From positions 5,179,001-5,243,000 of the forward strand of contig NC_068976.1 of NCBI RefSeq assembly GCF_016808095.1: a DNA stretch of 64,000 nt, written 5' to 3'. Under the pieces are notes generated by a model that saw nothing but the letters and a program-made list of their open reading frames with translations, was not told the DNA's origin and ran no database searches. Made by a program: the position numbers and the translations under genes. Each line of letters opens with the position of its first letter. Position 1 is the stretch's first letter. Below are positions 3,455 through 27,600 of this stretch, one piece after another. This stretch comes from Vigna angularis. Its lineage: Eukaryota; Streptophyta; Magnoliopsida; Fabales; Fabaceae.

Positions 3455-3632
3455 GTAATAGTTTTAATTAAGCTTATAGTTTCGATTGGGGCTTTAGAAC
3501 TGAGATTTTGCGGATTGATTCTTTTTTTACTTTTCACTCAGCGTGATAATAAAGATGCATTTCATCATCATTTGGCATTTTTCTTTGTTTATCTTATTTA
3601 TTTATACTTTTTCATAAATTTAAATGATGCAG
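3455..3632 (+). other. Predicted 178-bp intron between protease and RT exons of Ogre
   Basis: The upstream frame stops at 3456-3458 and the RT frame is a different one. A GTAATA donor at 3455 and a pyrimidine-rich stretch ending in the acceptor GATGCAG at 3626-3632 would remove 178 bp. The joined codon is ATA, and reading continues without a stop through 'CDNDCFENNDIN' into the RT frame. Splicing at this position is known for Ogre elements. The exact sites here are my inference. Confidence 0.75.
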
Positions 3633-6600
3633 ATGTGACAATGATTGTTTTGAAAATAACGATATCAATGTTCCTAATTTTGAGCACCCTATCAATAATA
3701 CGGAAGATGATTTCGAAGATGATGTGGAACCCTCTCCAGAATTGTTGAGATTAATGGAACAAGAATCTAAGGAGATAAAACCCCATCAGGAGGAGATTAA
3801 AATACTCAACTTGGGAGAGAAGGATGAGATAAGGGAGGTGAAAATCGGTACTAGTATGAAAACGGAAGTGAGGGAAAGATTGCGTGTCCTGTTGAAGGAA
3901 TTTAAAGATGTGTTCGCATGGTCTTACAATGACATGCCGGGTCTGGATACCGATATTGTGCAGCATAGGCTCCCACTCAAGCCGGAATGCCCTCCAGTCA
4001 AGCAAAAACTGAGAAGAATGAAGCCGGAAATGTCCCTAAAAATTAAAGAAGAGGTCCAAAAGCAATTTGATGCAGGATTTTTGGCTGTGGCAAGATACCC
4101 ACAATGGGTAGCAAATGTTGTACCAGTGCCTAAGAAAGATGGGAAGGTTCGAATGTGTGTTGACTATCGTGATTTGAATCGTGCAAGTCCGAAAGATAAT
4201 TTCCCGTTACCACACATCGATACTCTGGTTGATAATACGGCCAAATTTTCGTTATTTTCGTTCATGGATGGATTCTCGGGATATAATCAAATTAAAATGG
4301 CACCGGAAGATATGGAAAAAACGACCTTTATCACGTTATGGGGAACATTCTGTTATAAGGTGATGTCTTTCGGACTCAAGAATGCTGGAGCAACATACCA
4401 AAGGGCAATGGTGACACTCTTTCATGATATGATGCATAAAGAAATTGAAGTTTATGTGGATGACATGATTGCAAAGTCGGAATCAGAAGAGGAGCATATT
4501 TTCAATCTAAGGAAATTATTTGAGAGACTGAGAAAGTACAAACTCAGGTTAAATCCTGCTAAATGCACGTTCGGTGTAAAGTCTGGAAAATTGTTGGGCT
4601 TTATTGTCAGCCAAAGAGGGATAGAAGTTGATCCTGACAAAGTAAGAGCGATAACGGAAATGCCTGCGCCCAGAACAGAAAAGGAGGTTCGAGGTTTTCT
4701 GGGAAGGCTGAACTACATTGCTAGGTTCATCTCCCAATTAACTGCTACTTGTGAACCAATGTTTAAGTTGCTACGGAAAAATCAGGCTGTAGTCTGGAAT
4801 GAAGATTGTCAAATTGCTTTCGAAAAGGTCAAACAATACCTGCAGGACCCTCCTGTATTGCGTCCACCTATGCCAAGAGGACCGCTCATTTTGTATTTGA
4901 CCGTACTGGATAATTCAATGGGTTGTGTATTGGGTCAGCATGATGAAGACGGGAAAAGAGAGCATGCCATATATTACTTGAGCAAGAGGTTCACAGATTG
5001 CGAACAACGATATTCGTCGTTAGAGCGAACTTGTTGTGCACTGGCGTGGGCTGCTCATCGTTTAAGGCAATACATGTTGAGTCACTCTACTTGGTTGATA
5101 TCTAAAATGGATCCTATCAAGTACATTTTCGAAAAGCCCGCTCTCACTGGAAGGATAGCTCGATGGCAGATGCTACTATCGGAGTACGACATTGTATATG
5201 TTACTCAGAAATCTATCAAGGGTAGCGCTTTAGCAGAATTTTTAGCCCATCAGCCCATTAGTGATTATCAGCCGATGCAACCTGAGTTTCCTGATGAAGA
5301 TATCATGGCTTTATTTGCTGAGAACAGAGATGACAAAAATGAAAAAGCCTGGACGGTATTATTCGATGGGGCATCGAATGTAATGGGGCATGGAATAGGG
5401 GCAGTGCTTATCTCTCCTAAGAATCAATACATTCCAATGACGGCAAGGTTGTGTTTTAATTGCACAAATAATATCGCAGAATACGAAGCCTGTGCTATGG
5501 GTATTCGAGCAGCAATAGAGTCTAAAGCAAAAATTCTGGATGTATACGGAGATTCAGCTTTGGTTATCCATCAATTGAAGGGAGAATGGGAGACTAGGGA
5601 TACTAAATTAATTCCATACCAAGCTTACATCAGGGGATTAATTGAGTATTTCGATTCCATCACGTTTAATCATATACCGCGAGAAGATAATCAATTAGCA
5701 GACGCGTTGGCTACCTTGTCGTCGATGTTTGAAGTTGATCAAGATGCAGAATTGCCAATGATTGAAATGAAGAGTCATGCGGGGCCAGTGTATTGTCATT
5801 TCATCGAGGAGGAAGTAGATGGTAAACCTTGGTACTTTGATATCAAGCATTATCTTAAGACTCGAGAATATCCAGAGAAGGCATCCGAAAACGATAAAAG
5901 GGCGTTAAGGAGGTTGGTTGGCAGTTTCATTTTGAGTGGGGATATTCTATATAAGAGGAATCATGACATGGTTCTCCTTAGATGCGTAGATGCAAAAGAA
6001 GCCGAGCTGATACTAAAAGAAGTACACGAGGGTACATTTGGCACGCACATGAATGGGCACTCAATGGCCAGGAAGATACTGAGAGCGGGGTATTTTTGGT
6101 TGACTATGGAAAATGATTGCTGTACACATGTGAGAAAGTGTGAGAAATGCCAGGTATACACAAGTAATATCAATATGCCACCCACGACCTTGAACGTGTT
6201 GTCTGCACCATGGCCCTTTTCGATGTGGGGAATAGATGTCATCGGAGCTATAGAGCCAAAGGCGTCAAATGGACACCGTTTCATATTAGTCGCAATCGAT
6301 TACTTCACCAAATGGGTTGAGGCCGCTTCTTATGCTAATGTGACTAGAAAGGTGGTGACCAAGTTCATAAAAAGGGAGTTGATTTGCAGATACGGGCTCC
6401 CTAACAAGATCATCACTGATAATGCTACTAACTTGAATAACCAGATGATGACAGAGTTATGTGAGGAGTTCAAAATTCATCATCTTAATTCTTCTCCTTA
6501 TCGTCCAAAGATGAATGGGGCAGTAGAGGCTGCTAACAAAAATATCAAGAAGATTGTGCAGAAGATGGTGGTCACATATAAAGATTGGCATGAAATGCTT

Positions 6601-7077
6601 CCTTTTACTTTACATGGTTACCGCACTTCGGTACGAACATCGACTGGGGCAACGCCTTTCTCGCTTGTATATGGAATGGAAGCAGTACTTCCGTTTGAAG
6701 TAGAAATTTCGTCTTTACGAGTTTTAATGGAAACCCAATTAGAAGAGGCTGAGTGGGTTCAGGCTCGTTTCGACCAGCTCAATCTCATTGATGAAAAAAG
6801 ATTAACAGCAGTATGCCATGGACAATTGTACCAAAGAAGAATGAAGAAGGCATTTGACAAAAAGGTACATCCAAGAGAATTTCATGAAGGTGAGCTGGTG
6901 TTAAAGAAGATCTTACCTATACAAAAAGATCATAGAGGCAAATGGACTCCAAATTATGAAGGGCCATTTGTAGTGAAAAAAGCATTTTCTGGTGAGGCAC
7001 TAATTCTCACGAGAATGGACGGAGAGGAGTTACCATTGCCAGTTAATTCTGATGCAGTAAAAAAGTTTTACGCATGA
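3633..7077 (+). CDS. Ogre RT - RNase H - second RNase H - integrase exon
   Basis: About 1147 codons are open from the predicted acceptor, with a first internal ATG at 3724. The order is RT ('VRMCVDYRDLNRASPKDNFP' and catalytic 'YVDDM' near 4454), then an RNase H attached to RT ('YYLSKRFTDCEQRYSSLE'). A second RNase H-like domain follows ('FDGASNVMGHGIGAVL' at about 5360, then 'YGDSALVIHQLKG' and 'REDNQLADALATLS'). The integrase has an H-H-C-C zinc segment (about 6030-6150) and a D-D-E core: 'WGIDVIG', 'IITDNATN', and the E in 'NGAVEAANKN'. A tandem second RNase H is a known Tat-lineage trait. No stop interrupts this exon, so it is better preserved than gag. Confidence 0.93.
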
Positions 7078-8483
7078 TGATTCCGTGATAGTGGTTGCTA
7101 TTAAGGAGATGTTGATATTATCGTTAAATATTATTGTACTCTGTGCTTTTTTTAATAAAGGAAGTTCGCATAGTTCATTCATATTTTGGTTGTTTGCATT
7201 CCATCTGAAATATTGCATGTCACGCTGAGCTGTTAAGTAATCAAGAAAAAATGAAAATGAAAATAAGTAAACGCATGTTGATAAAAGCATCACAGGTATA
7301 TCAGGTTGGTGAGCTCGGTCCTGGAGGATGTCGAAAAAGGAAAACGAAAAAAAAGAAGGTCACATGTTGAGTTTGTTGTTAATAAAGTTGTCAAGGACAT
7401 AGTATTTTCACAAAAAAAAAAAAAAAAAAAGAAGAGGGTTTTGAAAAAATACCGTTGGAGAGCCCTTTCTTGATTCAAGGTTTAAGGTGTAACCGGTGTT
7501 CTTTTCTTGATAAAGCGTCTGCATTCACATTACTTGAACCCTATTTTTTCCGTTTCCCACAAGACGAAGGATTTCGCCATATGCCTAATATTGGGGCAGT
7601 TTTCATCATGTTACATATCACTGATAATCCGTTGATTAGGGAGATAAAATATAAAAAAAAAAAAAGAAGAAGAAGAAGAAGGAGAAAACAAAGGAAACAA
7701 AACAAAGGAAAAATGAAGTTGATGTGTCAAGTACTACATAGTTTAGTTTCAGGGTTAAATTCAAGAGAAAGTCAGACAAACAAGATTCGGAGTGACGTGT
7801 GGCCGTTTTTCGTTACCCAATCGTCAAAAGCAGTTCAACCAATTGCACCCCTTTTGAGCCAAAATGCATAATTGTTTTCATCACCCTAGACAAGAATCAT
7901 TAGCAGGTCGATGTCAATTTAAAAGGGTACATCATAAGCATCCAAAGAAAAAGGATAAAATGAATGAAAAGGAAAGTATCATAAAGGATCACAACAGGGG
8001 CAACGAAAAGAATGATCCAAAGGGAAAGAAAGAAAAAACAACAATAAATATGCCTGAAGTTCAAATCCCTAAAAACAGTTGACTGGGCACCTTGCAAATG
8101 ATTCTTGTCTAAAGACTTTAACCGTCAAACAATTATTTGGGCCTTCATTATCCTTTCTTTCAAAACCCTTTGACCTTTAGCCACGGTACAAGCCGATAAA
8201 AGTCCACGCTGACTGAAGACTGTTGGTCCTAATCTTTCTCACGAATTTAACTTTGAAACAGAATAATGTGGTGAACGACGCAATTCAGTGTTATTTTAAA
8301 AAAAAAAATAAATAAATAAAAAAAAAAAGTCTCCCTGTCAATCGAAGATCATCCAATTTGGGGGGATCCTTCATACCCAAATCATTATTCATTTGTTTTT
8401 CATAACCATTCTTCCACATCATACAGGGTTCAAGTTAATTTGGATTGCAAAAAGCGATAAAAAGAATTTTAACTCAGGGTTAC
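7078..8483 (+). other. Ogre 3' non-coding region, first part
   Basis: From the integrase stop to the young element insertion I see no conserved coding capacity. The sequence holds several A-rich tracts (7409-7440, 7651-7700, 8297-8330) and short open frames of low-complexity lysine/arginine codons. Ogre elements normally have a long untranslated 3' region here. It continues at 19125. Confidence 0.75.
8479..8483 (+). repeat. Target-site duplication GTTAC, left copy
   Basis: GTTAC at 8479-8483 immediately precedes the first LTR. The same five bases at 19125-19129 follow the second LTR. A perfect 5-bp duplication is the expected footprint of LTR-retrotransposon integration and fixes both element ends. 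Confidence 0.95.
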
Positions 8484-10889
8484 TGATGAATCATTATTTT
8501 CTTCACTGCACTTAGTTTATTGTGCTAGATTTAATCAGGAAATTGTGCTTAATTGTCTAGTATTTTCCCATTTTACTGAATTGAGCTTAATTCGATCAGA
8601 AATTCTTATTTTAATTAATTTGAATTATCTGAAACTAATTATTTATATTATTGAGTGCAGGGAAAATTCTGGATAATATTTTAGGACATTTGGAAGAAAA
8701 AAATTATTTAAGAAAACATTGTTTGGCATCAGTACAACACACAGCTATTTCAACCATCACAAAAAGGGAATTTGATTTTTTTTAAAAAAATAGAAAGCAT
8801 TCATGTTTGGAAAATTAATTTTGGCAAAGGGAAGTTCTAAGTGCAGCCACGGTTTTGGCAAGCATTTGGCAAAGTTGATGTCCACCTTTAGAAGCTCACG
8901 GCAATTACATCTGCAACTCATTTCTTTCAAATGAAAAATCTTGCAAAAGGACAAAACAAAAGAGCAATTGGAGTCAAATAAGGGATCAAATTTGGTGGAA
9001 ATTTACGTTGGGAAGTTGCTATTCCCTTGCCATGTCACGGTTACATATCCTAAACCCATGGACAAGTTATTTTGGTGAAAGCATTCAGCAAAAACATCTT
9101 TTTGAATGAGGGGGCCACCATTTGGGTCACATTCACGGTCAGGAGGAACTGTAAAATGCTGATAAATACTTGTTGAAGTGTAAAGAGAACATGGTCCCAC
9201 ACTTATGCACATCCATTATTCCTAGAATAAGAATGGGAGCCACCAATTATTGGAAGTTCACGGATACTGATTTGGAAGCTGGGAGAAGATGGAGACGGAA
9301 GGGGCATCAACTTGGTTGAGCACTTCACGGTGGTTGCTGAAAGAGAAGAAGACTCCCGTCCAGTAGTAGCCATCACCGAGAGGGAGAAGAATGAAGCGTG
9401 ATGCACGGCCAGCTAAAGATCACCAAAGCAGCTGCTACATACAGTAGTGTAGCTGGTCCAGCAACCCATCGAAGGGAGAAAATGGAGGTGCAGCTGCCCA
9501 CACTTGCACGTACAGCAGCCTGTCCAGAGATGATGGAGAAAGTGTGCAGCAGCCACACGCCAGAAGAGAACCACGTCCATTTTCATACATCCAGCAAGGG
9601 AAGAAGGATTGGTCTTGTCGGTCCAGCAGCTTTGGAGAGCACCATGGTGATTGATGATGGAAGCACGTCCACCAGCAGCAGCAGCCATCAAACGTCCAGC
9701 AAACTACAAGCAGCCTCCACGTGCACAGCAGCAAGCTTGAAGAGAAAGGGAGAAGGAGATGTTGAGAGAAATAAAATGAAGAAGCATGGATGAGCTGCAC
9801 CTTGGTCTTGTCTCCAGAAAGCTCACGGCCTTATCCAGAAAAGTAGAGAGGAGAAAATGCAGCAGCCACCACCTTCATTATTGGTTTATGTGTGCAAATC
9901 CAGCAAGGAGATGCAAGAAGGACCTCTCGGTTGAAGCACAAGTTGTTCACGGGAGTTGATCTGGAGGCTGTGCAGTTGCTCACGGTCAATGGCTTGGTAG
10001 TAGCTGATCAGAGTTGGAAACGGATGAAGCACACAGCAGCTGGTCCGAGCAAAGAATGGAGGTGTAGTGTCCAGCTTCAACCACACCAAGAGGAGGAGGC
10101 CGTGAGAGTCCAACAGCCCACACTTGGGACGTTCCAGGAAGCTGAAACAAGAAGACAAGGATTAGGGGCCCACTTTATTTTTGGTATAGACAAAATGAAA
10201 GAATGTTTTATTAATATGGGTGGAAAAATTGGCTGAAATGGAGAAGTCACGGGAGGTTGCAACAAAAAGAGAAGTGGCTATAAAAGATGAAGAGCAGCAG
10301 CAGATTGGAGTATTAGATTTAGGAGTAGATTTTGGTGTTATAGTAGAATTAGTTTAGGAGAAGTCACGCCTCTTCCTTCTTTTCCAGTTCTATTTTCATC
10401 ATCCAGTTCTATTTTCATCAGTACTTGAATTTTATTTCTGAAGCGTGCATTTCACACTTTGATCATTTCATTTTCATTTTATTTCAAGTGATGAATTTTA
10501 ATTTAAGAATTGAATCTTCGATAAATTTTATTTTGAGTCAAGTGCTTTTAATTTTATCGTCTCTTTTATTTTACCGCTTATTACTTTTTGAGTCGTTTAA
10601 TTTTACCGTTTCTCAAATTTACCGCTTTCCGTTTTTACCGTCTTTTACTTTTTGATTTTACTATTTTTAAAATTTGCTTCAGTGTTGTTAAATTCAGTTA
10701 TTGTATTTAAATTCCAGTTTAATTTATTACCGCAAACAAAAACATCACAAACCCCCCCACTTCGTGTAAAAAAATCTGAGACTAAACCACCAAAATTGGT
10801 CCTTGAGAGACGACCTAGGAGTCACTTCCTAGTCCTGTACTGCATTAATTTTGTTGTATCAAATTTGTATGACCGCGACAGTCGTATCA
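8484..10889 (+). repeat. 5' LTR of the young element (2406 bp)
   Basis: It is co-linear with 16719-19124 at a constant offset of 8235, with no indels. By eye there are seven mismatches, for example T at 9192 against C at 17427. It ends in TG...CA with short inverted TGAT/ATCA termini. A TATA box (TATAAAA at 10279-10285) marks the likely U3-R boundary region. The hexamer TCACGG occurs about nine times between 8897 and 10250. Long minus-strand frames inside it are not conserved proteins. Confidence 0.96.
10279..10285 (+). promoter_or_regulatory. TATA box of the LTR promoter
   Basis: TATAAAA lies in the context GGCTATAAAAGATG, about 600 bp before the LTR end, as expected for an LTR promoter driving the genomic RNA. 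The 3' LTR has the same box at 18514-18520. Confidence 0.65.
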
Positions 10890-10894
10890 AATTT

Positions 10895-10912
10895 TGGCGC
10901 CGTTGCCGGGGA
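10895..10912 (+). promoter_or_regulatory. Primer-binding site complementary to tRNA-Asp
   Basis: TGGCGCCGTTGCCGGGGA starts five bases after the LTR end. Its complement matches the 3' end of plant tRNA-Asp(GTC) including CCA, as I remember that tRNA. It would prime minus-strand DNA synthesis. Confidence 0.88.
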
Positions 10913-11433
10913 CCAATAACGGTTTGGTTTTAGATTTTTGTTGTGTAAATTTTTGTTCTGTTAATATGTTTGTTTTGTGTGTTTTGTCTTGTATATTTTT
11001 GTAGGCGACAACGACACCTTCAGCAAATTTTGGCGACGTTGTCACTTCAGTCCAGGTTCTTGTTTTAGATTTTTACTGTTTTTGTTTTATTACGTGGTTG
11101 TAATATATGTTTTGTCTTTTATATTTTTATTGTGTTGTGTTTTGTATTATGTTTGTCAATTAAAAAAAAATCTTAAAAAAAAAAAAGTTTTTAATTTTGT
11201 TCTGTCTTGTTTGTGTCTGAAGCATGTTTAATTGTGTTGTGTTTTATTTTGTGTTATGATGTGATGTTCTGTATGTGTGTTGCATGTGCTTTATCTGTTA
11301 AATAAAAAAATTTAAAAAAAAAATTTATTATGTTCTATCTTTTGTGTGCGTGTAACATGTATAAATGTGTTGTGATTTATCTGTTTAGTAATTTTTAGTA
11401 TTTAGTTTTTATTTGTTTTATTTTTATTTTTTC
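10913..11433 (+). other. Untranslated leader of the young element
   Basis: This is about 520 bp of T-rich leader between the primer site and the gag start. A second, degenerate primer-site-like stretch (TTTTGGCGACGTTGTCAC) sits near 11028-11045. No coding potential is apparent. Confidence 0.6.
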
Positions 11434-12897
11434 ATGTCTACCTATTCTGGCTATGTGAATACTGCTTATTCTGTGGATGCCTCTAGCTATGACTCTTATT
11501 CTGCATATTACTGTGATTTTAATTCTGCTAAATTTTATGATGAGAAAAATATGGATCATCCTCAATTTCCTGAGCTCACTCCTCGTGAGCCGGTCCCACC
11601 TACAAAGGATGATATTCATTGCGTTCTTAGCACTGGACTGATATATATGCTTCCTAAGTTTCATGGTTTTGCTGGAGAATGCCCACATAGACATTTGGAG
11701 GAGTTCCACAACATTTGCTCTTCAATGAAGCCTCCACATGTCCCTCTTGATCACATTTTCTTGAGGGCATTTCCGCACTCATTACAAGGAGCAGCTAAGG
11801 ATTGGCAAGACTCTCTTCCTCTAGGATCCGTTACCGATTGGGGATATCTTGAGCTTCAGTTTGTGAGAAAATTCTCCCCTGAGCAGTATGGATACATCAA
11901 CGATCCTGAGTGGAACAATCTTAACAATGAATGGTACGATACCCCACAAGATCATTATCAAGAACCACCATTCGAGAGTCCTTTCATGCCTCCACCAGTC
12001 CAGCAATATCAGAATCAGCAGTATAATGCCTCTGCCCAAACAACTCCTCAGCCTTCAACTTCTGAACCTACATTGAAGGAGTTATTGGAGCAGATGACCA
12101 TGCAGAATCTCAAGTTCAAGCAAGAGAGCATGAAGATCCAGCAGGAAACTCAAGCTGCCATGCAGAATCTGAGTGATCAGATCGGGCAGATGGCCACTCT
12201 TGCACCTGAGGAGACTGCTGATGAACATTTTGAGGCCCAAGCAAGAATAAGCAGTAATTCTGACCCAGGTAGACCAATTTCATCTTCCACTACTTTTCAA
12301 ATCTTCAAGGAAGTGGAGGTAAGCATACCTCAGTATGATTATGCTATTCATGATTATGTTAATAATTATGCTGTTGATATGTATGCGGATGACTATATTG
12401 TTGCTGAGCATGATTTTAATTTTCCCTCTGTGCATGATGAGAACAAATTTTTGCCATCATATCTGAATACTTCTTATCCATGCACTGAACATGAATCTGA
12501 ATTTGTGGTAGATAATGTTTCTAAAATTGAAATTGATTCATGTTCTGAGGATGTATCTAAGGTTCAGCCTATTACATTGGGATTGGGTGTTATACCTCTG
12601 CATGATATTTCTGTGGAACCATTTCGTACTAACCATATTGCAGGAGGTACGTATAAATTTGATCAACATACACCCACAGTGGAAAACAAAGGTGCTGACA
12701 CTGACAATTCGAAGATCAACAGGCACCTGCTGAATCCGCTCAGTAACAATATTTGCTGTTTAGATCCGGCGGTGGAGGATATTTCCCTGCTTGATCAGAT
12801 TTGGAGGATGAAGCAGTTCGTCCTCAACAATTTTGTGCTGGATCCTGAAGAGAAGAACATCTCCCTACAAATCCAAAATTGGCAACTGCCACCCTGA
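11434..12897 (+). CDS. Gag protein of the young element (487 aa)
   Basis: The ATG at 11434 is the first in frame; upstream codons are T-rich leader. Residues of about 55-150 form a retrotransposon gag core ('LPKFHGFAGECPHRHLEEFH' then 'AFPHSLQGAAKDWQDSLP' and 'LQFVRKFSP'), the plant gag family found in Athila and Tat elements. A glutamine-rich segment and a coiled-coil-like stretch ('TLKELLEQMTMQNLKFKQES') follow. The acidic C-terminal half is unfamiliar. There is no CCHC zinc knuckle and no protease motif, and the frame ends in a plain stop with no pol downstream. The protein probably forms particles that package the element RNA, using enzymes supplied in trans. Confidence 0.88.
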   Translation: MSTYSGYVNTAYSVDASSYDSYSAYYCDFNSAKFYDEKNMDHPQFPELTPREPVPPTKDDIHCVLSTGLIYMLPKFHGFAGECPHRHLEEFHNICSSMKPPHVPLDHIFLRAFPHSLQGAAKDWQDSLPLGSVTDWGYLELQFVRKFSPEQYGYINDPEWNNLNNEWYDTPQDHYQEPPFESPFMPPPVQQYQNQQYNASAQTTPQPSTSEPTLKELLEQMTMQNLKFKQESMKIQQETQAAMQNLSDQIGQMATLAPEETADEHFEAQARISSNSDPGRPISSSTTFQIFKEVEVSIPQYDYAIHDYVNNYAVDMYADDYIVAEHDFNFPSVHDENKFLPSYLNTSYPCTEHESEFVVDNVSKIEIDSCSEDVSKVQPITLGLGVIPLHDISVEPFRTNHIAGGTYKFDQHTPTVENKGADTDNSKINRHLLNPLSNNICCLDPAVEDISLLDQIWRMKQFVLNNFVLDPEEKNISLQIQNWQLPP

Positions 12898-13650
12898 CCA
12901 GGGAAGTTTTCTTTTTCTTTCTTCCCCGTTTTCATATTTTTAGTGCACTTGTCCTTTATCTGTTTATTGTTTTAATTGATGATCTTATGCTTAGAAAACA
13001 TCTAGGACAGTGTAGTTTAAGTGTGGTCTTGGGAAGATTCTGCATTTTATTTTTTCTTTTAAGTTTGTTTTTCCTTTTCTTTTTTGTTTTCGAATTATTA
13101 ACTTTAAAAAAAAAAAAAATTTAAATAAAAAAAATTTGTGTGTTATGTTCCAGATCTGTTGTTTTGTTAATTTATGTTCTGTAAATATATGTTTTTTCTG
13201 CTATTTTTGACATTTGTGTTTTGTGTGCTTTGATATTTTGTGTTCGATTTTATGTCTTTTGTTTTGTTAATTTGTGTTCTATTTTTTATTTAGTTTTTGT
13301 TTAAAAAAAATAATAATAAAAAATATAAATAAAAATAAATAAATAATCGTAAGAGCAGAATTAGCAAGTAAAGGGCAGAGAGGTGAAACTATCTGAGTGC
13401 ATTTATTGAACATACCATATACGCAAAAAACATTCTGTCTTACATAATAATAAAAATAAAATACATAAAAACATAAATATAGTTGTTCGGGGTTCGATCT
13501 TCCACGATCGTTAATATTACAAACCTTAATATAAAAAAAAAACACCATAAAAAAAATAAAAACATAAAAAAAAAATTGTTCAGATTACATGCCTCATTAA
13601 TATTCTGGCCACACTCGGCCAACAAAAACATAAAAAAAAAAACATAAAAT
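12898..13650. other. AT-rich spacer between gag and the antisense gene
   Basis: About 750 bp of T-rich then A-rich low-complexity sequence, with A-tracts near 13106-13135 and 13540-13575. It may hold 3' ends for both convergent genes (gag on +, homeobox gene on -). No protein is recognisable. Confidence 0.55.
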
Positions 13651-14205
13651 TTAAAATTGGAAGAATTCTCGAGTTGGTTGTGGTGGTCTAAGGGAGAGCA
13701 CCGTTGAAGGAGCTCTGGTTCGGAATGCAGGGGGCGTAGGTGGCGGGATTTGCCGTTCATCTTTGTCGTCGTCGATTATGATGGGAATGGGGAAGAGGTC
13801 CAACAGCCTCGGTGCCCTCATTATCACCCAGTTGTATTCTTTCAACAAAAAAAAAAAAAACTTGTGTTAATAATAGAAGAGGAAGTGAAAATTTTCAATA
13901 AAAAATTGAGGTGTGATCAGGGTCTTACCGTACATATATAGCGGCAGTTGTGAAAACTGAGTGCCAGTGGGGTCTATCTCCGCTTGCCAGCGCCTGACCC
14001 GATTGCCGTGGTTGTTGAACCAGCAATGCACGTTGTATTCGCTGGCATCTCCGAAGATCCTTAGTCGAGACGTGATCTCGACAACTTGCGCTCTGCTTGG
14101 GTGTGTGACCCCAAAGTTGTAGATTCTGGTCATCATCTGGGTCTGATCTTCGGTAGGACGCCACCGCTGACTGGTGTATCTCTCTGATTCCATGTCACTC
14201 GTCAT
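13651..14205 (-). CDS. WUSCHEL-related homeobox (WOX)-like protein on the antisense strand, two coding exons, 154 aa
   Basis: The first coding exon runs 14205 down to 13929 and the second 13838 down to 13651. A GTAAG donor (13928-13924) and a T-rich acceptor ending AG (13840-13839) remove 90 bp. The coding total is 465 bp, exactly 155 codons with stop. Residues of about 13-74 read as a WOX homeodomain: 'QRWRPTEDQTQMMTRIY', 'EITSRLRIFGDASEYNVHCW', then 'WFNNHGNR' in helix 3. The invariant W, F and second N are kept; the usual Q is N. After splicing, residues 104-110 are 'LLDLFPI', close to the WUS-box T-L-x-L-F-P. WOX proteins are nuclear transcription factors of stem-cell niches. It lies tail-to-tail with gag. 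The frame, splice sites and two family hallmarks agree, so I read it as a captured and possibly functional gene. Expression is unproven. Confidence 0.82.
13839..13928 (-). other. Predicted 90-bp intron inside the antisense WOX-like gene
   Basis: On the minus strand it opens with GTAAG after TACG and closes with a long T-tract followed by GTTGAAAG. Removing it joins G with AA to make a Glu codon and keeps the frame open into the WUS-box exon. Confidence 0.75.
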
Positions 14206-14219
14206 GCCTCTCTAGTATT

Positions 14220-14870
14220 CTAAAACATAAAAAAATGAAAAAAAAAAAACCAAAAAAAAAAAAAACCAAAAACATAAAAAATAAAAAAACAGAAAAATAT
14301 AAAGCATAAAAAAAAATATTAGATTAGTCTGTGTTTTCTTTATTTGTTCTTGTTTCCTTTTAGATTTATTTGTCCTGTCTGTCTTTGATTGTTTCTGTAT
14401 TTGGTCTCAGATCTGTTTCACGGTCCTTGCAAAAGGGTCCTAAACGGATCTACGTCCAGTTGTCCAGTTGTCCTTGTCCATATTGTTCTTGTATATTAAG
14501 TTTCTGTGTTTTATTTTTTTTTAGTGGGGTACGTGGCGTTGTTCTACCCGATTGTCTCTGCAATACCTTCAATCGAAGGGAGATTAACGTCTGGTTTCCA
14601 GCCTATATACCCCTTACGTTTTTTGACAGTTATGTTTTATGCGTTTAAGTGTTTTAAGTTTCAGAAAAATGAAAAAAAAAATTTGAAAAGGAGAAGAAAG
14701 AAGATAGATCGGGCAGGGGGAGAGGACAAGTATTGCAGAAAAGAAAGAAAAAAAAAATATACAAGAAAGCAGGAAAAGGGAGAGGGTGAGAAAAGCTGAG
14801 AAAGTGCAAAAAGAAAGAAAAATGTAAATGAAAGCAGAAAGAAAGGTAGATCTAGGTGCAGATGACTTAC
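14220..14870 (-). other. Predicted 651-bp 5'-UTR intron of the antisense WOX-like gene
   Basis: On the minus strand the donor is a consensus CAG/GTAAGT (boundary 14871/14870). The acceptor TTTTATGTTTTAG ends at 14220, with the ATG 14 bases further on. The interior is AT-rich, with long T and A tracts as plant introns have, and encodes nothing recognisable. Confidence 0.65.
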
Positions 14871-15020
14871 CTGGAGTAGTAGGCTGGCAGAGGAGCTCCT
14901 CGCTGATCTCAGACTCTTCAGAAGGCGCAGTGGCAGAGGCTCCGCGCAGGCTCCAGACGCTCAGAGGAGGAGAGAGAAGAGAGAGAAGACAGGAGCAGAG
15001 AGAGTGAGAAGTCAGAAATG
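14871..15020 (-). other. Predicted 5'-UTR exon of the antisense WOX-like gene
   Basis: On the minus strand about 150 bp of CT-rich then GC-richer leader lies between the TATA box and the consensus splice donor. It differs sharply in composition from the surrounding AT-rich element DNA. The upstream limit is inferred from the usual 25-30 bp TATA-to-start distance. Confidence 0.55.
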
Positions 15021-15043
15021 TTGCTCGACGCTGAGGAGGTACC

Positions 15044-15052
15044 CTTTTATAG
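15044..15052 (-). promoter_or_regulatory. TATA box for the antisense gene
   Basis: The minus strand reads GGCTATAAAAGGGTACC. The box lies about 30 bp before the CT-rich leader exon and is independent of the LTR promoter, which points the other way. Confidence 0.65.
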
Positions 15053-15065
15053 CCAAAAATTCTGC

Positions 15066-15114
15066 CACTGTAGCAACAGTTCCGGTCATTGCCACCGAAA
15101 CTGTTGTCACAGTG
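15066..15114. repeat. Imperfect 21-bp inverted repeat just upstream of the antisense TATA box
   Basis: The left arm begins CACTGTAGCAACAGTT and the right arm ends AACTGTTGTCACAGTG. The arms match at about 18 of 21 positions around a 7-base centre. Relative to the antisense gene it sits immediately 5' of the TATA box. It could be a protein-binding palindrome or an RNA hairpin in the sense transcript. Confidence 0.7.
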
Positions 15115-15173
15115 CCGGTCATCTCCTTTTCAGAAAAAAATAAAAAAAAATTAAAAATTAAAAAAAAAAATTT

Positions 15174-15249
15174 AGCATCTACTGATGGATGCTAGGTGAT
15201 TTAGACATCTGCTGATGGATGTCATTGACAACATCTACTGATGGATGTT
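15174..15249 (+). repeat. Array of three 20-nt hairpins with covarying stems
   Basis: Three units start at 15174, 15204 and 15230. The first is AGCATCTACTGATGGATGCT. The stems are AGCATC/GATGCT, GACATC/GATGTC and AACATC/GATGTT, each a perfect 6-bp pairing. The outer two pairs change in a compensatory way while the 8-nt loop (TACTGATG or TGCTGATG) is nearly constant. Units with the same core occur in elements A (31570-31646) and B (62900-62956). The pattern points to a selected RNA structure. Confidence 0.8.
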
Positions 15250-16718
15250 ATTGAAAAATTTCTTCCCTTTTTCCTACTTTTTATTGCACTTGTCTATATT
15301 ATTTGACTGCTCTGAAATTGATAATCTGATGATTGTTACACACTGAGGACATTGTGTGATTTAAGTGTGGTCTACTGGGAAGAAATTCTAATTATTCTGT
15401 TATTTCTGTTAGTTTCTGTTAGTATGTATTTTGTGTGTTAAATTTTTTGTTTTTGTGTGCTAAATTTTTTCTGTTTTAAGTTGTTTTAGTGTGTCTTGAG
15501 TGCAATAAATTTTACATTTTTCTCTTGATTTCTGGATTATCTAAGTTGTAGATTTTTCCTTCACTTACTTACTACTTATAGATTGTAATCCTTGCTTTTC
15601 TTTGCTTGGAAAGATGATTATACGTTTGAGAGGTTGATTTGATTGTGACGAATACCCTGTGTGAGATTTGAGCCACTTAATTTTCTTTCTTGTGTGTGAT
15701 ATGTATCTTGAATGCTTGCACATATGCCTTGGCTTGATTCTTTTTGATATAGTTGATTGATATGCATGTTCAGACGTGATAAAGGCATTTTTGTTCTTGA
15801 ACCTCTTTAGCCAAATAAGCCTACCTTGTTATTATCCTTTGATAACCCCTTTGAGCCTATACTGTATATATTTCTTTGTGTTGAAGCTCATACACTGATC
15901 CTAAGTGAAAAACAAATGATTACCTTAACCTTAGGAAGGTCTGGAGCTATAGAAGTATTTTGTGAATAAGTGTGGTCTCCTTGGGAATTCTGATGAATTG
16001 GCTAGTTGGTTCCTCATCATGTTTTGAAATGAAAATTTATATCCTGTTGTGTGATAAAAAAAAGAAAAAAAAAGACAGGATAAAAAAAAATGATGAGAAA
16101 AAGAGAAAAATTGAAAAATAATTTTGTGAATAATGGAGTCGAGAAGAGGATTGAATTAGAGGTTTGGGTGAGATTTCACTGTGTTTACATTTTTTTCCCT
16201 AGTGCACCTCTATTTCTTCTGAGCTATAGCTACTTATCCAAATTTATCCTCCCCTGTCCTTGGCCCCATTACAACCCAGTAAAGACCTTTAGATCTGAAC
16301 ATGCATATGTTTTAAGTGTTGATATTAGAAGCTTGCCAAGTCTATTTGTGTTTGTTTTCTTGAGTGCATTGAGTGACATTGATTTACCCTAGACACTTGA
16401 GAGAAACACTGTGAGTGCATCTGTGAGGTTTTGTTATTTTTGAATCACCTCTTGAGCTGATTAATCATTTTGCTGTGTATTGAATTGCTTGGATTATTTC
16501 TGTAAGTATCTGCTTTATTTGATTTGTGTTGGATAATCTCTACTTCTTTTATTTGTCTAGAATTCTTGAGAACTGTGTAAAATTCTGTTTGCTTTCTTGC
16601 GAGTTTTTATTTTTCTGTCTGCTGAGTTTGTGTCATTATTCCCAAAGTCCTTTGAACCATTCCCTGATTTGCGTCTTAATTTTGCCCAGGAGTGCAAAAG
16701 ACTAAGTGTGGTCTATTT
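15250..16718 (+). other. 3' internal non-coding region of the young element
   Basis: There is no conserved protein. The motif AAGTGTGGTCT recurs near 15363, 15969 and 16704 (also at 13019 beyond gag). The last copy is a few bases before the 3' LTR, where the polypurine tract should be. Low-complexity A-tracts occur near 16057-16100. Confidence 0.6.
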
Positions 16719-19124
16719 TGATGAATCATTATTTTCTTCACTGCACTTAGTTTATTGTGCTAGATTTAATCAGGAAATTGTGCTTAATTGTCTAGTATTT
16801 TCCCATTTTACTGAATTGAGCTTAATTCGATCAGAAATTCTTATTTTAATTAATTTGAATTATCTGAAACTAATTATTTATATTATTGAGTGCAGGGAAA
16901 ATTCTGGATAATATTTTAGGACATTTGGAAGAAAAAAATTATTTAAGAAAACATTGTTTGGCATCAGTACAACACACAGCTATTTCAACCATCACAAAAA
17001 GGGAATTTGATTTTTTTTAAAAAAATAGAAAGCATTCATGTTTGGAAAATTAATTTTGGCAAAGGGAAGTTCTAAGTGCAGCCACGGTTTTGGCAAGCAT
17101 TTGGCAAAGTTGATGTCCACCTTTAGAAGCTCACGGCAATTACATCTGCAACTCATTTCTTTCAAATGAAAAATCTTGCAAAAGGACAAAACAAAAGAGC
17201 AATTGGAGTCAAATAAGGGATCAAATTTGGTGGAAATTTACGTTGGGAAGTTGCTATTCCCTTGCCATGTCACGGTTACATATCCTAAACCCATGGACAA
17301 GTTATTTTGGTGAAAGCATTCAGCAAAAACATCTTTTTGAATGAGGGGGCCACCATTTGGGTCACATTCACGGTCAGGAGGAACTGTAAAATGCTGATAA
17401 ATACTTGTTGAAGTGTAAAGAGAACACGGTCCCACACTTATGCACATCCATTATTCCTAGAATAAGAATGGGAGCCACCAATTATTGGAAGTTCACGGAT
17501 ACTGATTTGGAAGCTGGGAGAAGATGGAGACGGAAGGGGCATCAACTTGGTTGAGCACTTCACGGTGGCTGCTGAAAGAGAAGAAGACTCCCGTCCAGTA
17601 GTAGCCATCACCGAGAGGGAGAAGAATGAAGCGTGATGCACGGCCAGCTAAAGATCACCAAAGCAGCTGCTACATACAGTAGTGTAGCTGGTCCAGCAAC
17701 CCATCGAAGGGAGAAAATGGAGGTGCAGCTGCCCACACTTGCACGTACAGCAGCCTGTCCAGAGATGATGGAGAAAGTGTGCAGCAGCCACACGCCAGAA
17801 GAGAACCACGTCCATTTTCATACATCCAGCAAGGGAAGAAGGATTGGTCTTGTCGGTCCAGCAGCTTTGGAGAGCACCATGGTGATTGATGATGGAAGCA
17901 CGTCCACCAGCAGCAGCAGCCATCAAACGTCCAGCAAACTACAAGCAGCCTCCACGTGCACAGCAGCAAGCTTGAAGAGAAAGGGAGAAGGAGATGTTGA
18001 GAGAAATAAAATGAAGAAGCATGGATGAGCTGCACCTTGGTCTTGTCTCCAGAAAGCTCACGGCCTTATCCAGAAAAGTAGAGAGGAGAAAATGCAGCAG
18101 CCACCACCTTCATTATTGGTTTAAGTGTGCAAATCCAGCAAGGAGATGCAAGAAGGACCTCTCGGTTGAAGCACAAGTTGTTCACGGGAGTTGATCTGGA
18201 GGCTGTGCAGTTGCTCACGGTCAATGGCTTGGTAGTAGCTGATCAGAGTTGGAAACGGATGAAGCACACATCAGCTGGTCCGAGCAAAGAATGGAGGTGT
18301 AGTGTCCAGCTTCAACCACACCAAGAGGAGGAGGCCGTGAGAGTCCAGCAGCCCACACTTGGGACGTTCCAGCAAGCTGAAACAAGAAGACAAGGATTAG
18401 GGGACCACTTTATTTTTGGTATAGACAAAATGAAAGAATGTTTTATTAATATGGGTGGAAAAATTGGCTGAAATGGAGAAGTCACGGGAGGTTGCAACAA
18501 AAAGAGAAGTGGCTATAAAAGATGAAGAGCAGCAGCAGATTGGAGTATTAGATTTAGGAGTAGATTTTGGTGTTATAGTAGAATTAGTTTAGGAGAAGTC
18601 ACGCCTCTTCCTTCTTTTCCAGTTCTATTTTCATCATCCAGTTCTATTTTCATCAGTACTTGAATTTTATTTCTGAAGCGTGCATTTCACACTTTGATCA
18701 TTTCATTTTCATTTTATTTCAAGTGATGAATTTTAATTTAAGAATTGAATCTTCGATAAATTTTATTTTGAGTCAAGTGCTTTTAATTTTATCGTCTCTT
18801 TTATTTTACCGCTTATTACTTTTTGAGTCGTTTAATTTTACCGTTTCTCAAATTTACCGCTTTCCGTTTTTACCGTCTTTTACTTTTTGATTTTACTATT
18901 TTTAAAATTTGCTTCAGTGTTGTTAAATTCAGTTATTGTATTTAAATTCCAGTTTAATTTATTACCGCAAACAAAAACATCACAAACCCCCCCACTTCGT
19001 GTAAAAAAATCTGAGACTAAACCACCAAAATTGGTCCTTGAGAGACGACCTAGGAGTCACTTCCTAGTCCTGTACTGCATTAATTTTGTTGTATCAAATT
19101 TGTATGACCGCGACAGTCGTATCA
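16719..19124 (+). repeat. 3' LTR of the young element (2406 bp)
   Basis: It has the same length as the 5' LTR and is about 99.7% identical to it by eye. It ends ...GTCGTATCA, directly followed by the GTTAC duplication. Near-identity of the LTRs indicates a recent insertion. Confidence 0.96.
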
Positions 19125-20660
19125 GTTACACTTTCTTCCTGCTCATTAAAGGGTTCTATACCTATCAACGTTGTTTTTAAGGAATGCGTTTTGAACATAC
19201 ATTGTGTTTGATGACAATATTAACAATGGATTCCAAGCATGGAATTTAAAAAAAAAAAAAAAAAAAATGAAGGTCTCATTTGTCTATGCATCCATGCATC
19301 ATCATGACATAACATCATCTTAGAGGAAGCGAGGAGAATTGTTTGCAAAATCTTCATGTTTTACTCGGCATTTATCAACTTTCCAAAGCTGCAAGTCAGG
19401 TTTTAATTTTCTGTTATCGACCCTCTGCATGGCAATGGTCGGATTTAAATTTCTGTTCTGTGAGTTTGGCCCTCTGCAAGACAATGGTCAAATCCAGGTT
19501 TTAGTTTTCTGTTATCGGCCCTCTGCATGGCAATGGTCGGATTTAAATTTCTGTTCTGTGAGTTTGGCCCTCTGCGAGGCAATGGTCAAATCCAGGTTTT
19601 AGTTTTCTGTTATCGACCCTCTGCATGGCAATGGTCGGATTTAAATTTCCGTTCTGTGAGTTTGGCCCTCTGCGAGGCAATGGTCAAATCCAGGTTTTAG
19701 TTTTCTGTTATCGACCCTCTGCATGGCAATGGTCGGATTTAAATTTCTGTTCTGTGAGTTTGGCCCTCTGCGAGGCACTGGTCAAATCCAGGTTTTAATT
19801 TTCTGTTATCGACCCTCTGCATGGCAATGGTCGGATTTAAATTTTCGTTCTGTGAGTTTGGCCCTCTGCGAGGCAATGGTCAAATCCAGGTTTTAATTTT
19901 CTGTTATCGACCCTCTGCATGGCAATGGTCGGATTTAAATTTCTGTTCTTTGAGTTTGGCCCTCTGCGAGGCAATGGTCAAATCCAGGTTTTAATTTTCT
20001 GTTATCGACCCTCTGCATGGCAATGGTCGGATTTAAATTTCCGTTCTGTGAGTTTGGCCCTCTGCGAGGCAATGGTCAAATCCAGGTTTTAATTTTCTGT
20101 TATCGACCCTCTGCATGGCAATGGTGGGATTTAAATTTCTGTTCTGTGAGTTTGGCCCTCTGCGAGGCAATGGTCAAATCCAGGTTTTAATTTTCTGTTA
20201 TCGACCCTCTGCATGGCAATGGTCGGATTTAAATTTCTGTTCTGTGAGTTTGGCCCTCTGCGAGGCAATGGTCAAATCCAGGTTTTAATTTTTTGTTATC
20301 GACCCTCTGCATGGCAAAGGTCGGATTTAAATTTCTGTTCTGTGAGTTTGGCCCTCTGCGAGGCAATGGTCAAATCCAGGTTTTAGTTTCTGTTATCGGC
20401 CCTCTGCATGGCAATGGTCGAATTTAAATTTCTGTTCTGTGAGTATGGCCCTCTGCGAGGCAATGGTCAAATCCAGGTTTTAGTTTTTTGTTACTGATAC
20501 TTTACTTGACATTGGTCATTTGGCATCGTGACTTGAATTATTTTGTTCGTTTTCTTTCATGATTGAAACCCGGACAAAATTAGTGTCTTTATCTTTACTT
20601 AGCTTTACTTAAATAATACGAAAAGATTAAATTTTCATATTATTTAGTAATATCTAAGTA
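19125..20660 (+). other. Ogre 3' non-coding region, second part
   Basis: This resumes the sequence interrupted at 8483; 19125-19129 is the right GTTAC duplication. It is dominated by the 97-bp minisatellite. The tail (20490-20660) contains ACCCGGACAAAATTAGTG near 20569, an inverted partner of the LTR start CAATTTTGTCCGGGTTG at 20682. No gene is present. Confidence 0.75.
19399..20490 (+). repeat. 97-bp tandem minisatellite, about 11 copies, in the Ogre 3' region
   Basis: The repeated landmark CCCTCTGCATGGCAATGG recurs about every 97 bp. Each unit has two related halves of about 48 bp, one with CTGCATGGCAATGGTCGG and one with CTGCGAGGCAATGGTCAA. The array is therefore a dimer-based higher-order repeat. 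Copies differ by a few substitutions. Minisatellites in the 3' untranslated region are known in Ogre elements. Confidence 0.92.
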
Positions 20661-23235: not shown

Positions 23236-23801
23236 CTTTTCCTTCTTTATTAAAAATACTAAAATATTCCCAAACCACAAGTAATCTCTCTTCTAGAACT
23301 ACGTTACCCTTGATTCTTCACCAAAAATGGAGATACGTAGGAGCAAGGCCAATCCTTGTCAGGTTCATTTCCCAAAAATACAAAATCATTTCCAAACAAA
23401 TTTCTCAAACAGTTTCAGAAAGAACTACGTAACCCTGATTTCTCATTTTGAATGAGAATACGTAGGAGCAAGGTCAATCCTTGTCGGGCCCAAAAAAACT
23501 AAAAAATATATTTTTTTTATTTAGAATTTTATTTTAGGGACTAGTTAAACATTTTGAAAACCACATCATATTCGTGCATTTAGTTAAAAGTACTGCCTTC
23601 GGGCAGGCGCTGTAGGGTGCTAATACCTTCCCTACGCGTAACCGACTCCCGAACCCAGAATCTGGTTTTCGTGGACTGTGTCCTATTATTTTATGGTTTT
23701 TCCGTAGTTTTCCAGAATAAACTATGGTGGTGACTCCAAAATCTCTTTTCAAAACTTGTTTCTTTTTGGATCGTCGTCCCGTCGCGATTCTGGTTGCGAC
23801 A

Positions 23802-26160
23802 GCAACCAATTCAATGGATTATCACATGAAAATCCATATGAGCATCTGACCACATTCAATGAGATATGCAATTCTGTGAAGATCAATGGCGTGCCAAATG
23901 AAGCTATTAGATTGAGCTTGTTTCCTTTCTCTTTGGGAGACAATGCTAAGATGTGGTTGAACTCTTTTCCAGAGAACAACTTTACTGAGTGGGAAGCCGT
24001 GGTTGCAAAGTTTCTGAACAAATATTTCCCACAATCAAAGGTGAATAAAGTTAAATAAGAAATTTCTTCTTTCAGGCAGGGCATGGATGAAACATTAGGT
24101 CAAGCGTGAGATAGATTTAAAGGCTTGTTGAGGAAGACACCCACACATGACTTTGATGATCCTACAATAGTCATTCTATTCCTTGGAGGTCTAAGCTCAC
24201 AGACTAAATTGATACTGGAGGCCTCAGTTGGAGGTAATATCAAGTGCAAGACTCTAGAGGAAGCCTATGAGTTGATTGAAAATATGACTACAAATTATAA
24301 TGAGATGCATAGTGAAAGAACTCATCTTCAACAAAAAGGAGTTCTACAATTACAATCTCAAGATGCTCTATTGGCACAAAACAAGATTATGACTCAACAA
24401 TTGGAAACTTTGATGAAGAAAATCTCTCAATTGCTAAGGGAGTTGCAGAACGTTTCTCAAGTTCAACAACAACTTTGTGAGTTGTGTGGTGGAGATCATA
24501 TTAATGTTCAATGTTCTATACCAGAAGTTACCCAAGAGAAAGTCAATTTTATGAGTCAAGGTAATCAATTTCGTCCAGGTAATTACAATCAAGGATGGAA
24601 ACCTCACCCAAGTATGGGTCAAGGACAAGCTGGGAAATTCAATAGAGCACAACAACAACAACAATGGCAACATTAACCCTCTTTGTCTGAAAGAACTGTA
24701 AAGCTAGAAGAGACACTCCAACAGTTCATGCAAGTGTCTATCTCCAATCATAAAAGCACTGAAGCTGCTATAAGGAATTTGGAGATACAGGTTGGCCAAT
24801 TGGCTAAAAAGTTGGAGGAAAAATCTGAAAAGCAGGTTTGGGCTAATACTGAAGTTAACCCTAAAGAGGAGTGTAATGTTATCATGAGCATTAGTAGTGA
24901 GAGGTTGGAAGAGAGAAAAATTGAGAGAAAAGAAAGAGATGAGTTGAGTGAAAAAGAAGAAGAAGAAATTAAAGAGGGAAAAAGTGAGGTTGAGAGGAAA
25001 TAAAAGGGAGAAAGAAAAGAAGAAGAAGAGGGCGAGAGAAAAGAGAGACAAATTGAGAAAACTCTACCTTACCCTAAAGATTACTCTAGAAAGGAAAAAG
25101 AGAGACAATTAGGGTGTTATAAGGAGATGTTCAAGAAATTGTGGATTACTATTCCATTGATTGAGGCATTGCACCAAATCCCTATGCATGCAAATTTTTT
25201 GAAGAAGTCCTTAAAAAAGAAGAAATATTTAGATGAGGGAACAATTGAAGTATAGGGAAATTGTAGTGTGATTTTGCAGAAGACACTTCCTCCTAAAGTC
25301 AAAGATCCGAGAATTTTTACTATTCCTTGCACTATTGGGGATCGTGATGTAGGGAAAGTTCTAATTGATTTAGGGGCTAGCATCAATTTGATGCCCTTAT
25401 TTATGCTAAAGAAGATTGGTGATCTTGAGGTTAAACCTACTAAGATGGTGTTAAAAATGGTGGATAGATCTACCAAGAATCCCTATGGTGTAGTGGAAGA
25501 TGTTGTGGTCCAAGTTGATAAACTTAAATTCCAGGTGGATTTTGTAGTGATGGACATGGGGGAAGATTTGAAGATTCCTATCTCTCTTGGAAGGCCATTC
25601 ATGAAGATAGCTAAGGTATTATCAATGTAGATGATGAAGTTGTAATGCTTAAAGACCAAGATGAAGAGGTGACTTTCAATGTCTTTAATGATTAGAAGCT
25701 GATTCAAGTGAAGAAGACTAGTCCAAAAGCTACTGATGAAAATTTGTCAAAGACTAATGTATCTAAGCAAGCTGCTGACTCAGTCAAGGGAGGTAAGTAT
25801 TGTTTCTTGTCACATGTAGAGGAAGATGAGAAAGATATTAAAGAGAAGATAGTCCACCAAGACTTGAAGTGTGAAGATGAGGAATTCAAACCCGGCAAAC
25901 CAGTCAATTACAAGAACATGTTATGGGTTGTGAAGGAGATTAAAGTGAACAGAGTTATTGAGATTGAAGCTCCATATTCTAGAAGAGTCAAGAAGGTGGA
26001 CCGGAAGTTGTTGAAGATAAGTTGGTGTGATGAAAGCAAGAGGAACACCAACATCAAAGCTTCAAACTGAGCATTATGGCGTCAGGCTCGTGACGTTAAA
26101 CAAGCGCTTGCTGGGAGGCAACCTAGTGTTTTTGAAAACTTTTATTTGGTTTGGTGTGTT
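23802..26160 (+). pseudogene. Element A gag-protease, decayed
   Basis: Gag core ('NPYEHLTTFNEICNSVKING', 'MWLNSFPENNFTEWEAVVAK') is followed by a single zinc-knuckle-like stretch ('CELCGGDHINVQC' near 24480). A lysine/glutamate-rich linker follows, then a protease-like domain at about 25268-25620 ('VLIDLGASINLMP', catalytic D kept, usual T/S replaced by L). Stops break it at about 24056, 24108, 24675, 25000, 25254 and 25628. The C-terminal segment near 26070-26130 encodes 'RDVKQALAGRQPSVFE', also conserved in element B. The Ogre insertion removed its N-terminus. It cannot give full-length protein. Confidence 0.85.
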
Positions 26161-27219: not shown

Positions 27220-27600
27220 ATGGCTTCATCCTCTAGCAAGTGTATTAAGACCATTGCTTCCAAGACAGACAGAGAACAGAAGAGGAAAGAACAAATATAT
27301 TCTAACAAGTTCCTCTCGCACATGCATGAGAGGCACTTTTAGGCAGTACAAAACAGCAGGTTGTTGATGGAGAGAAACGTGGGATTAATACCTTCCATGG
27401 CACCTGAGTTTGAGAGGGAACTTGGAAGAAGGCAATGGGAGAACTTACCTTCTTATCCATCACCTGCCAACATAGCTGTGCTGAAGGAGTTTTATACAAA
27501 TGCAAAGACATTCGGTGGTGCTACTCATGGGGCATATATGAGCTATGTGAAGGGAAAAAGAATACCTTATGATGCTGTCACAATCAATAGGTTTCTTGGT
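27220..27600 (+). pseudogene. Element A ORF2, first part, cut by the CACTA insertion
   Basis: The ATG at 27220 starts 'MASSSSKCIKTIASKTD'. It continues as 'LLMERNVGLIPSMAPEFERE' and 'SPANIAVLKEFYTNAKTFGG', then breaks at the CACTA end after 'AVTINRFLG'. A TAG at 27340 already truncates it. The sequence resembles the family annotated in plants as 'putative plant transposon protein' (as I recall, Pfam PF20167), common in legume retroelements and of unknown function. It continues at 30691. Confidence 0.78.
27598..27600 (+). repeat. Target-site duplication GGT of the CACTA element, left copy
   Basis: GGT precedes CACTAGT at 27601 and is repeated at 30688-30690 after ACTAGTG. A 3-bp duplication is diagnostic for CACTA transposons. 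Confidence 0.88.

Follow-up and report, generated by a model that had tools for sequence, protein, structure and literature searches.

The window analysed here is a stretch of 64,000 nucleotides from the genome of the adzuki bean, Vigna angularis (C7:5179001-5243000). Positions 8484-19124 of this window are a young long terminal repeat (LTR) retrotransposon of the Ty3 type, gag-only and non-autonomous, and it harbours, in antisense orientation, a predicted gene that is complete, with a TATA box, a 5' untranslated region (5'UTR) exon and intron, two coding exons and an AATAAA signal. The predicted product carries a homeodomain of the WUSCHEL-related homeobox (WOX) type. Comparison of copies across the genome shows this protein to be under strong purifying selection, stronger than that on gag. 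An earlier sequence-only reading had described a mobile element spreading such a gene with its own promoter, and the copies found elsewhere in the genome, which keep an intact WOX-like gene and promoter-like sequence in the same arrangement, bear this out.

The element and its antisense gene

The element is made up of the following features, numbered by window position:

8479..8483, no strand: left target-site duplication GTTAC, read directly; right copy at 19125-19129
8484..10889, plus strand: 5' LTR, 2406 bp, with TATA-like GGCTATAAAAG at 10276
10895..10912, plus strand: primer binding site TGGCGCCGTTGCCGGGGA, directly after the 5' LTR
11437..12897, plus strand: gag open reading frame (ORF), 486 aa from the first ATG, the sole long sense ORF of the element
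16719..19124, plus strand: 3' LTR, 2406 bp, pairing with the 5' LTR

The LTRs are 99.709% identical (7 mismatches, 0 gaps); assuming some 1.3e-8 substitutions per site per year, the element is roughly 0.1 million years old. Its primer binding site is presumably complementary to the 3' end of tRNA-Asp. The gag ORF matches PF03732 of Pfam with an E value of 4.9e-4 and 20.7 bits, under the 24.1 cut-off, and is 38% identical over 76 aa to the gag at window position 57988, which we take to be Athila-like; the element is without reverse transcriptase, and through its gag it may belong to the Athila lineage. No pol match was found in the element with the window's own Ty3 pol (3724-7074) as query, which matched only itself within the window and which a very distant pol could escape. 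An LTR pair, a target-site duplication, a primer binding site and gag, with no pol match, define a non-autonomous gag-only LTR retrotransposon, and the age and type first read from the sequence hold.

The antisense gene and the sequence just upstream of its promoter comprise:

15176..15247, plus strand: three copies of CATCTRCTGATGGATG (at 15176, 15206 and 15232), candidate binding repeats
15042..15054, minus strand: TATA box GGCTATAAAAGGG; its core TTATAGCC (plus strand) is present in 18 of 20 copies and absent in L023 and L028
14871..15020, minus strand: predicted 5'UTR exon, its start guessed about 25-30 nt past the TATA box
14220..14870, minus strand: predicted 5'UTR intron, 651 nt, donor CAG/GTAAGT, acceptor TTTTAG/, ending before 14219
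13929..14205, minus strand: coding exon 1, 277 nt, ATG at 14205, with the WOX-type homeodomain (sequence reading, Pfam)
13839..13928, minus strand: coding intron, 90 nt, GTAAGA...GAAAG
13651..13838, minus strand: coding exon 2, 188 nt, with WUS-box-like LLDLFPI, a degenerate EAR-like VLSLRPP and the stop at 13651
13402..13407, minus strand: predicted poly(A) signal AATAAA, read from sequence

As first claimed, the coding exons (14205-13929 and 13838-13651) join in frame to 155 codons, 154 aa followed by TAA. Both the promoter and the splice sites were predicted from the DNA sequence. New relative to the first description are the 5'UTR exon ending at 14871, the 651-nt UTR intron to 14219 and the AATAAA at 13407-13402. 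The annotated V. angularis gene models P0046, P0058 and P0060 extend into the window's promoter/UTR sequence, and P0058 spans the predicted 5'UTR exon up to the same donor. The core GGCTATAAAAG forms the TATA of the LTR at 10276 and 18511 and is common to the LTR and to the TATA box of the antisense gene.

Placed antisense between gag and the 3' LTR, found in many copies and equipped with its own predicted promoter, the gene has the arrangement of an antisense accessory ORF (aORF-3R), which was seen in the window and in 20/20 fetched copies selected by the promoter/UTR stretch. Because the gene is antisense to the genomic RNA, its introns would survive retrotransposition, and each new copy would be a complete gene.

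A direct repeat of 73% identity lies on either side of the antisense gene (12918-13066 and 15259-15415), and may be a trace of gene capture or a repeat of the element lineage. A tandem array of 49/98-bp units (19384-20467) adjoins the element.

The encoded protein and its relatives

The homeodomain was recovered by the Pfam hidden Markov model PF00046 (Homeodomain), which gives the spliced 154-aa product 28.1 bits (E 1.8e-6) where the cut-off is 22.9. Among solved structures the closest by sequence are STENOFOLIA (6.5e-11) and WUSCHEL (WUS; 2.4e-10), and the sole further row under E 10 belongs to an unrelated enzyme (0.98). Exon 1 modelled with AlphaFold2 reaches a mean predicted local distance difference test (pLDDT) score of 79.7, with residues 21-60 at 92-97, and the top eleven Foldseek matches of the model are all chains of WUS or STENOFOLIA, with E < 0.001 for three. 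Sequence and fold thus agree on a WOX-type homeodomain whose nearest solved relatives are WUS and STENOFOLIA (PDB 6ryd, 6ry3, 6wig), with the arm R-W, N90 and R94 kept. Unlike these proteins, however, the window protein is only 154 aa long, and it is 34-41% identical to them in the eleven top fold matches.

Helix 3 reads WFNNHGNR. Measured against the DNA-contact residues of WUS given in a passage of PMC7203112, the docking residue W39, the base-reading R38, N90 and R94, and also N83 and R96 are kept, whereas Q89 is changed to N, K82 to Y, Y86 to C and K92 to G. The replacement of the helix-3 Q by N had been noted from the sequence alone, with the suggestion that the protein may bind DNA differently or compete dominantly with WOX proteins of the host; the base-reading residues are nonetheless retained.

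C-terminal to the homeodomain stands the WUS-box-like LLDLFPI, which was said to appear only after splicing. The motif lies wholly within exon 2 and is present in unspliced sequence; what splicing alone achieves is to join it to the homeodomain. The assignment to the WUS clade stands in part. A WUS-box-like motif is there, but it reads L-L-D-L-F-P in place of T-L-x-L-F-P (T to L), the protein ends in VLSLRPP where an EAR-like ending would read LxLxL, and the family falls outside the WUS-clade rows in a tree. We take the LxLxL form of the EAR motif to be that of WUS and WOX5.

A protein search gave 61 matches among 70 candidates, of which 59 are from V. angularis, one is from V. radiata and one is the window itself. 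A profile search (82 matches among 1691 candidates) adds V. umbellata (P0071 and P0074), V. mungo (P0081) and one WOX2-like Rehmannia protein. Three subfamilies can be told apart by helix 3, which reads WFNNHGNR (that of the window), WFQNHGNR or WFQNYGYR. The WUS-box-like motif is TLDLFPI in most members of subfamily III, and the EAR-like motif is ELSLRL in most members seen of subfamilies II and III. From these sequences the pair of WUS-box and EAR-like motifs seems ancestral and to have been eroded in the window subfamily.

In a homeodomain tree (a short alignment with long branches and a midpoint root, seven of its rows provisional) the three Vigna subfamilies stand together on one side of a branch with support 98/96, apart from the sampled WOX rows, and 13 WUS-clade rows stand on one side of a branch that leaves out the Vigna family, with support 97/96. 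No close host donor gene was found: homeodomain identities between the three subfamilies and all WOX rows are 32-50%, the host WOX proteins compared being drawn from the best 120 of 3048 matches to a WOX2 query. Two gene models combine a WOX-like piece with other sequence. In P0071 (V. umbellata) it is fused to a PF28140 match, with a tail that is presumably arabinogalactan-like, and in P0081 (V. mungo) to SUI1/eIF1; these may be annotation chimaeras or real fusions.

Copies in the genome and selection on the gene

A protein query of the genome (448,266,875 bases) returned 1009 first-look candidates, of which 150 were scored, the window included. These best 150 exon-1 matches lie on 11 large contigs, C1 to C11, and because 140 of them are free of in-frame stops (the other 10 have one), the homeodomain frame is not a product of chance, although rows selected by protein likeness are biased to intact copies. 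This bias was lessened by a search with non-coding DNA only (window 14240-15060, from promoter to UTR intron), which gave 572 candidates and 40 scored rows, the window and 39 copies. Twenty of the copies were read as 10-kb stretches and 19 as short stretches. As the 39 are the copies most like the window in non-coding DNA, the figures derived from them describe the window subfamily.

Exon 1, exon 2, UTR, promoter and 3' region are present in 20/20 ten-kb stretches, and in every one the gene runs antisense to the 3' region; the predicted 5'UTR exon was likewise found in all 20, which had been selected by this very stretch. An LTR-like repeat pair of 99.29-100% identity lies within 17 of the 20 (one pair spans only 334 bp) and was not found within the stretches fetched for L009, L011 and L026. 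At the DNA level gag is matched in 17 of the 20, over only 89 nt in L025 and 254 in L024, and goes unmatched in L012, L015 and L028; translated comparison finds gag likeness in 20/20. The pol query matched two of the stretches (L016 and L013), by position outside the element in both. In L012 the LTRs are 99.5% identical to those of the window, yet the gag ORF is a different one (48% over 56 aa) and exon 1 is 90% identical; LTR, gag and gene therefore seem, from this comparison of sequences, to recombine as modules. On C9, three equal-scoring copies (L033-L035, at 14399138, 14407266 and 14415386) lie about 8.1 kb apart, as if element copies stood in tandem with common LTRs.

The structure of the gene is closely kept. 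Exon 1 measures 277 nt in 38/39 copies, the GTAAGA donor is kept in 39/39 and an AG acceptor, searched within 15 nt of the aligned place, falls exactly on it in 39/39, while the length of the coding intron ranges over 75-115 nt. After splicing the reading frame stays open in 36/39 copies, the others being L017 and L032 with a stop and L021 with a frameshift; the first ATG is missing in L040 and L044, leaving 34 fully intact.

Selection was gauged by the ratio of nonsynonymous to synonymous substitution rates (dN/dS), estimated with the Nei-Gojobori method over all pairs and a codon bootstrap, the pairs of copies being non-independent. For the whole coding sequence dN/dS is 0.202 (0.135-0.285), from 33 distinct sequences among the window and the 36 open copies; the first 20 copies alone give 0.217 (0.147-0.308). 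Exon 1 gives 0.211 (0.096-0.404) in the window and 38 copies, stop-bearing copies kept and L021 excluded, exon 2 gives 0.198 (0.120-0.302) among open copies, and the homeodomain 0.247 (0.093-0.544). The sequence-only reading had staked the gene on the absence of random stops and on selection for the frame, and in both respects the copies side with it. The value for gag is 0.608 (0.505-0.720), from ORFs of at least 460 codons in 12/21 elements (window included, the 9 with shorter ORFs excluded).

Control frames of exon 1 give 3.09 (sense +1), 0.63 (0.35-1.35; sense +2) and 1.54, 2.39 and 0.27 (antisense). A gene on the sense strand was considered as the cause of the low dN/dS and rejected: the antisense frame with 0.27 has third positions that coincide with the coding third positions, and no plus-strand ORF of at least 60 aa lies across exon 1, the nearest (13750-13941) touching only its last bases.

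Annotated proteins, themselves a selected sample, point the same way. Among 40 distinct database variants the 152 changes have a mean BLOSUM62 score of +0.50 vs -0.43 to -0.47 expected, and 7 changes fall in 14 core/contact sites (chosen by the analyst) vs 145 in 72 other sites (P 8e-7). The conservativeness of the changes holds in all four mutation models and the invariant-site count is significant in three of them, the exception being kappa 6, CpG 10.

What the gene may do for its carrier

Why should a retrotransposon keep such a gene? Purifying selection on the protein is stronger than on gag, and we therefore infer that the WOX-like protein contributes to the spread of the element; that the gene is kept intact in most copies examined suggests that the element needs the regulator to spread. 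The reading we favour, at about even confidence, is of a non-autonomous gag-only Ty3-type element with an antisense accessory WOX-type gene, whose product is probably a nuclear DNA-binding factor acting on the element's own chromatin or transcription. The protein would enter the nucleus and bind DNA, most likely that of the element itself, and so control chromatin or transcription in dividing, germline-forming cells, with the WUS-box-like motif supplying contact to a co-regulator. Its mode of action might resemble that of VANC proteins on VANDAL transposons. The retained base-reading residues are consistent with this reading, as are, by analogy, the precedents of VANC and of Grande gene23. As possible binding sites for the protein itself, the CATCTRCTGATGGATG repeats offer a lead only. 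They are imperfect palindromes with TGAT cores, found as such or as a close variant in 17/20 copies, and TGAT repeats rank second-best of four WUS probes in the relevant passage of PMC7203112.

Several observations weigh against a factor acting on its own element. The candidate repeats are missing in 3/20 copies, and CATCTRCTGATGGATG also occurs at WOX-free places of the window (31572, 31629 and 62939, in element remains). TGAA and tandem TGAA do not rise above dinucleotide shuffles in the LTR, leader, gag, antisense promoter or 3' region. TAAT is raised in the U3 of the LTR (22 vs 13.5; 1% of 200 shuffles), with a weak excess over the LTR as a whole (6%); as one of 24 tests, it was set aside as a binding signal. 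Defective copies would benefit from a trans-acting protein as well, and strong selection on single copies is then less easily explained. In the window subfamily the EAR-like motif is degenerate, and the antisense transcript, the protein and its DNA binding are all predictions from sequence.

The difficulty with single copies would vanish if the protein acted on its own carrier cell and promoted a stem-cell fate there, insertions in such cells then entering the germline more frequently. A WUS-type homeodomain with a WUS-box-like motif would suit such a role, but helix-3 contacts, backbone contacts and the EAR-like motif are changed, and hundreds of copies without a reported growth defect point to a weak or silenced activity; we regard this explanation as unlikely. 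In its selfish form, to which we give the same small credence, the element would use its own WUS-like regulator to bias which meristem cells found the germline, and copies with a working gene would be over-transmitted; if true, it would be an element spreading by steering development and not merely by copying itself. Nor is it probable that the plant makes use of the copies, for instance in stress adaptation, and that they are kept for this reason. A passage of a 2023 meeting report raises the coastal adaptation of V. marina and V. riukiuensis, calling the contribution unknown (PMC10714607), but the copies here are many, very young and scattered, selection is seen across different elements and not at a single locus, and amplification of this gene is also seen in adzuki bean, a species absent from the coastal ones listed in that passage.

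A part for the antisense RNA itself, for example as double-stranded RNA with the genomic transcript, has been proposed for antisense ORFs generally (passages of the review PMC7264820). It does not predict a low dN/dS, specificity for the codon frame or the loss of indels in exon 1 only, and is very improbable here. Hardly any weight is left to a captured gene carried along without function. Plant LTR elements do carry captured gene pieces, according to the same review, and 3/39 copies have a broken frame with two more lacking the first ATG; the dN/dS of 0.20, lower than that of gag, the splice sites kept in every copy and the fixed length of exon 1 beside a variable intron nevertheless already contradict it.

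The LTR-borne amplification of WOX genes in Vigna is already in print: the passage of PMC10714607 concerned describes WOX genes that built up in V. marina and V. riukiuensis (> 1000 copies in the latter), most of them lying between identical LTRs with target-site duplications. The present case shares the near-identical LTRs, the target-site duplications, the many copies and the genus, but concerns adzuki bean, and orientation, promoter, introns, motifs, gag and selection are absent from that passage. Neither 'WOX' nor 'Vigna' occurs in the 2026 report from this meeting series, and in the literature searched, which left out preprints and most subscription journals, no fuller account of the antisense gene, its introns, motifs, subfamilies or selection was found.

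A class of antisense genes without assigned function is known from plant LTR elements, as passages of PMC7264820, PMC11963269 (Retand) and PMC4093653 (common bean) describe. Like the antisense ORFs of the plant Ty3 elements Grande (gene23), Retand (ORF4), RIRE2 and PvRetro13, the window gene is conserved among copies; Grande gene23 is nuclear and expressed from its own promoter (PMC7264820), and some of the others are nuclear or putatively DNA-binding. These ORFs, however, encode other domains or none known (Transposase_28, SMC-like), and the window element is set apart by its lack of pol. The passages on antisense ORFs in the three papers name no homeodomain, and 'homeobox' and 'homeodomain' occur 0 times in PMC11963269. 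The likeness to VANC is a proposed one only, in that the element would encode a factor which binds DNA sequence-specifically and acts on repeats of the element's own non-coding DNA; the VANC targets described in a passage of PMC10398659 are tandem motifs in non-coding DNA of VANDAL transposons, but VANC is an unrelated protein of a DNA transposon. Another plant Ty3 lineage with a fixed functional domain of host type is that of Phalaenopsis elements with an acquired AlkB-type RNA demethylase, where domain and function are different ones and the function was demonstrated in vitro (PMC9289625).

Of the two proteins of this retrotransposon the better conserved is a host-type developmental regulator and not gag. 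The role of antisense genes in plant LTR elements becomes testable, since assays are at hand for homeodomain binding, for co-repressor contact and for effects on the meristem. A further caution is that 'WOX family expansions' annotated in Vigna may consist of transposon genes. A passage of the V. reflexo-pilosa genome paper (PMC10357499) reports a significant WUSCHEL-related homeobox expansion, with no transposon link made there, and this may consist of element-borne copies.

Elsewhere in the window, another Ty3 element (420-7077) comprises a gag with a G-patch domain (420-3458) and a pol with reverse transcriptase, RNase H and integrase (3724-7077). An ORF at 39644-40462 is flavin monooxygenase-like (PF00743, PF13738) and presumably resembles a YUCCA-type auxin gene. 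A minus-strand ORF at 55597-56358, with a weak Transposase_32 match below the cut-off, lies near the Athila-like gag-pol stretch at 57988-61836, of which a second copy, 88% identical, is found at 23801-27605.
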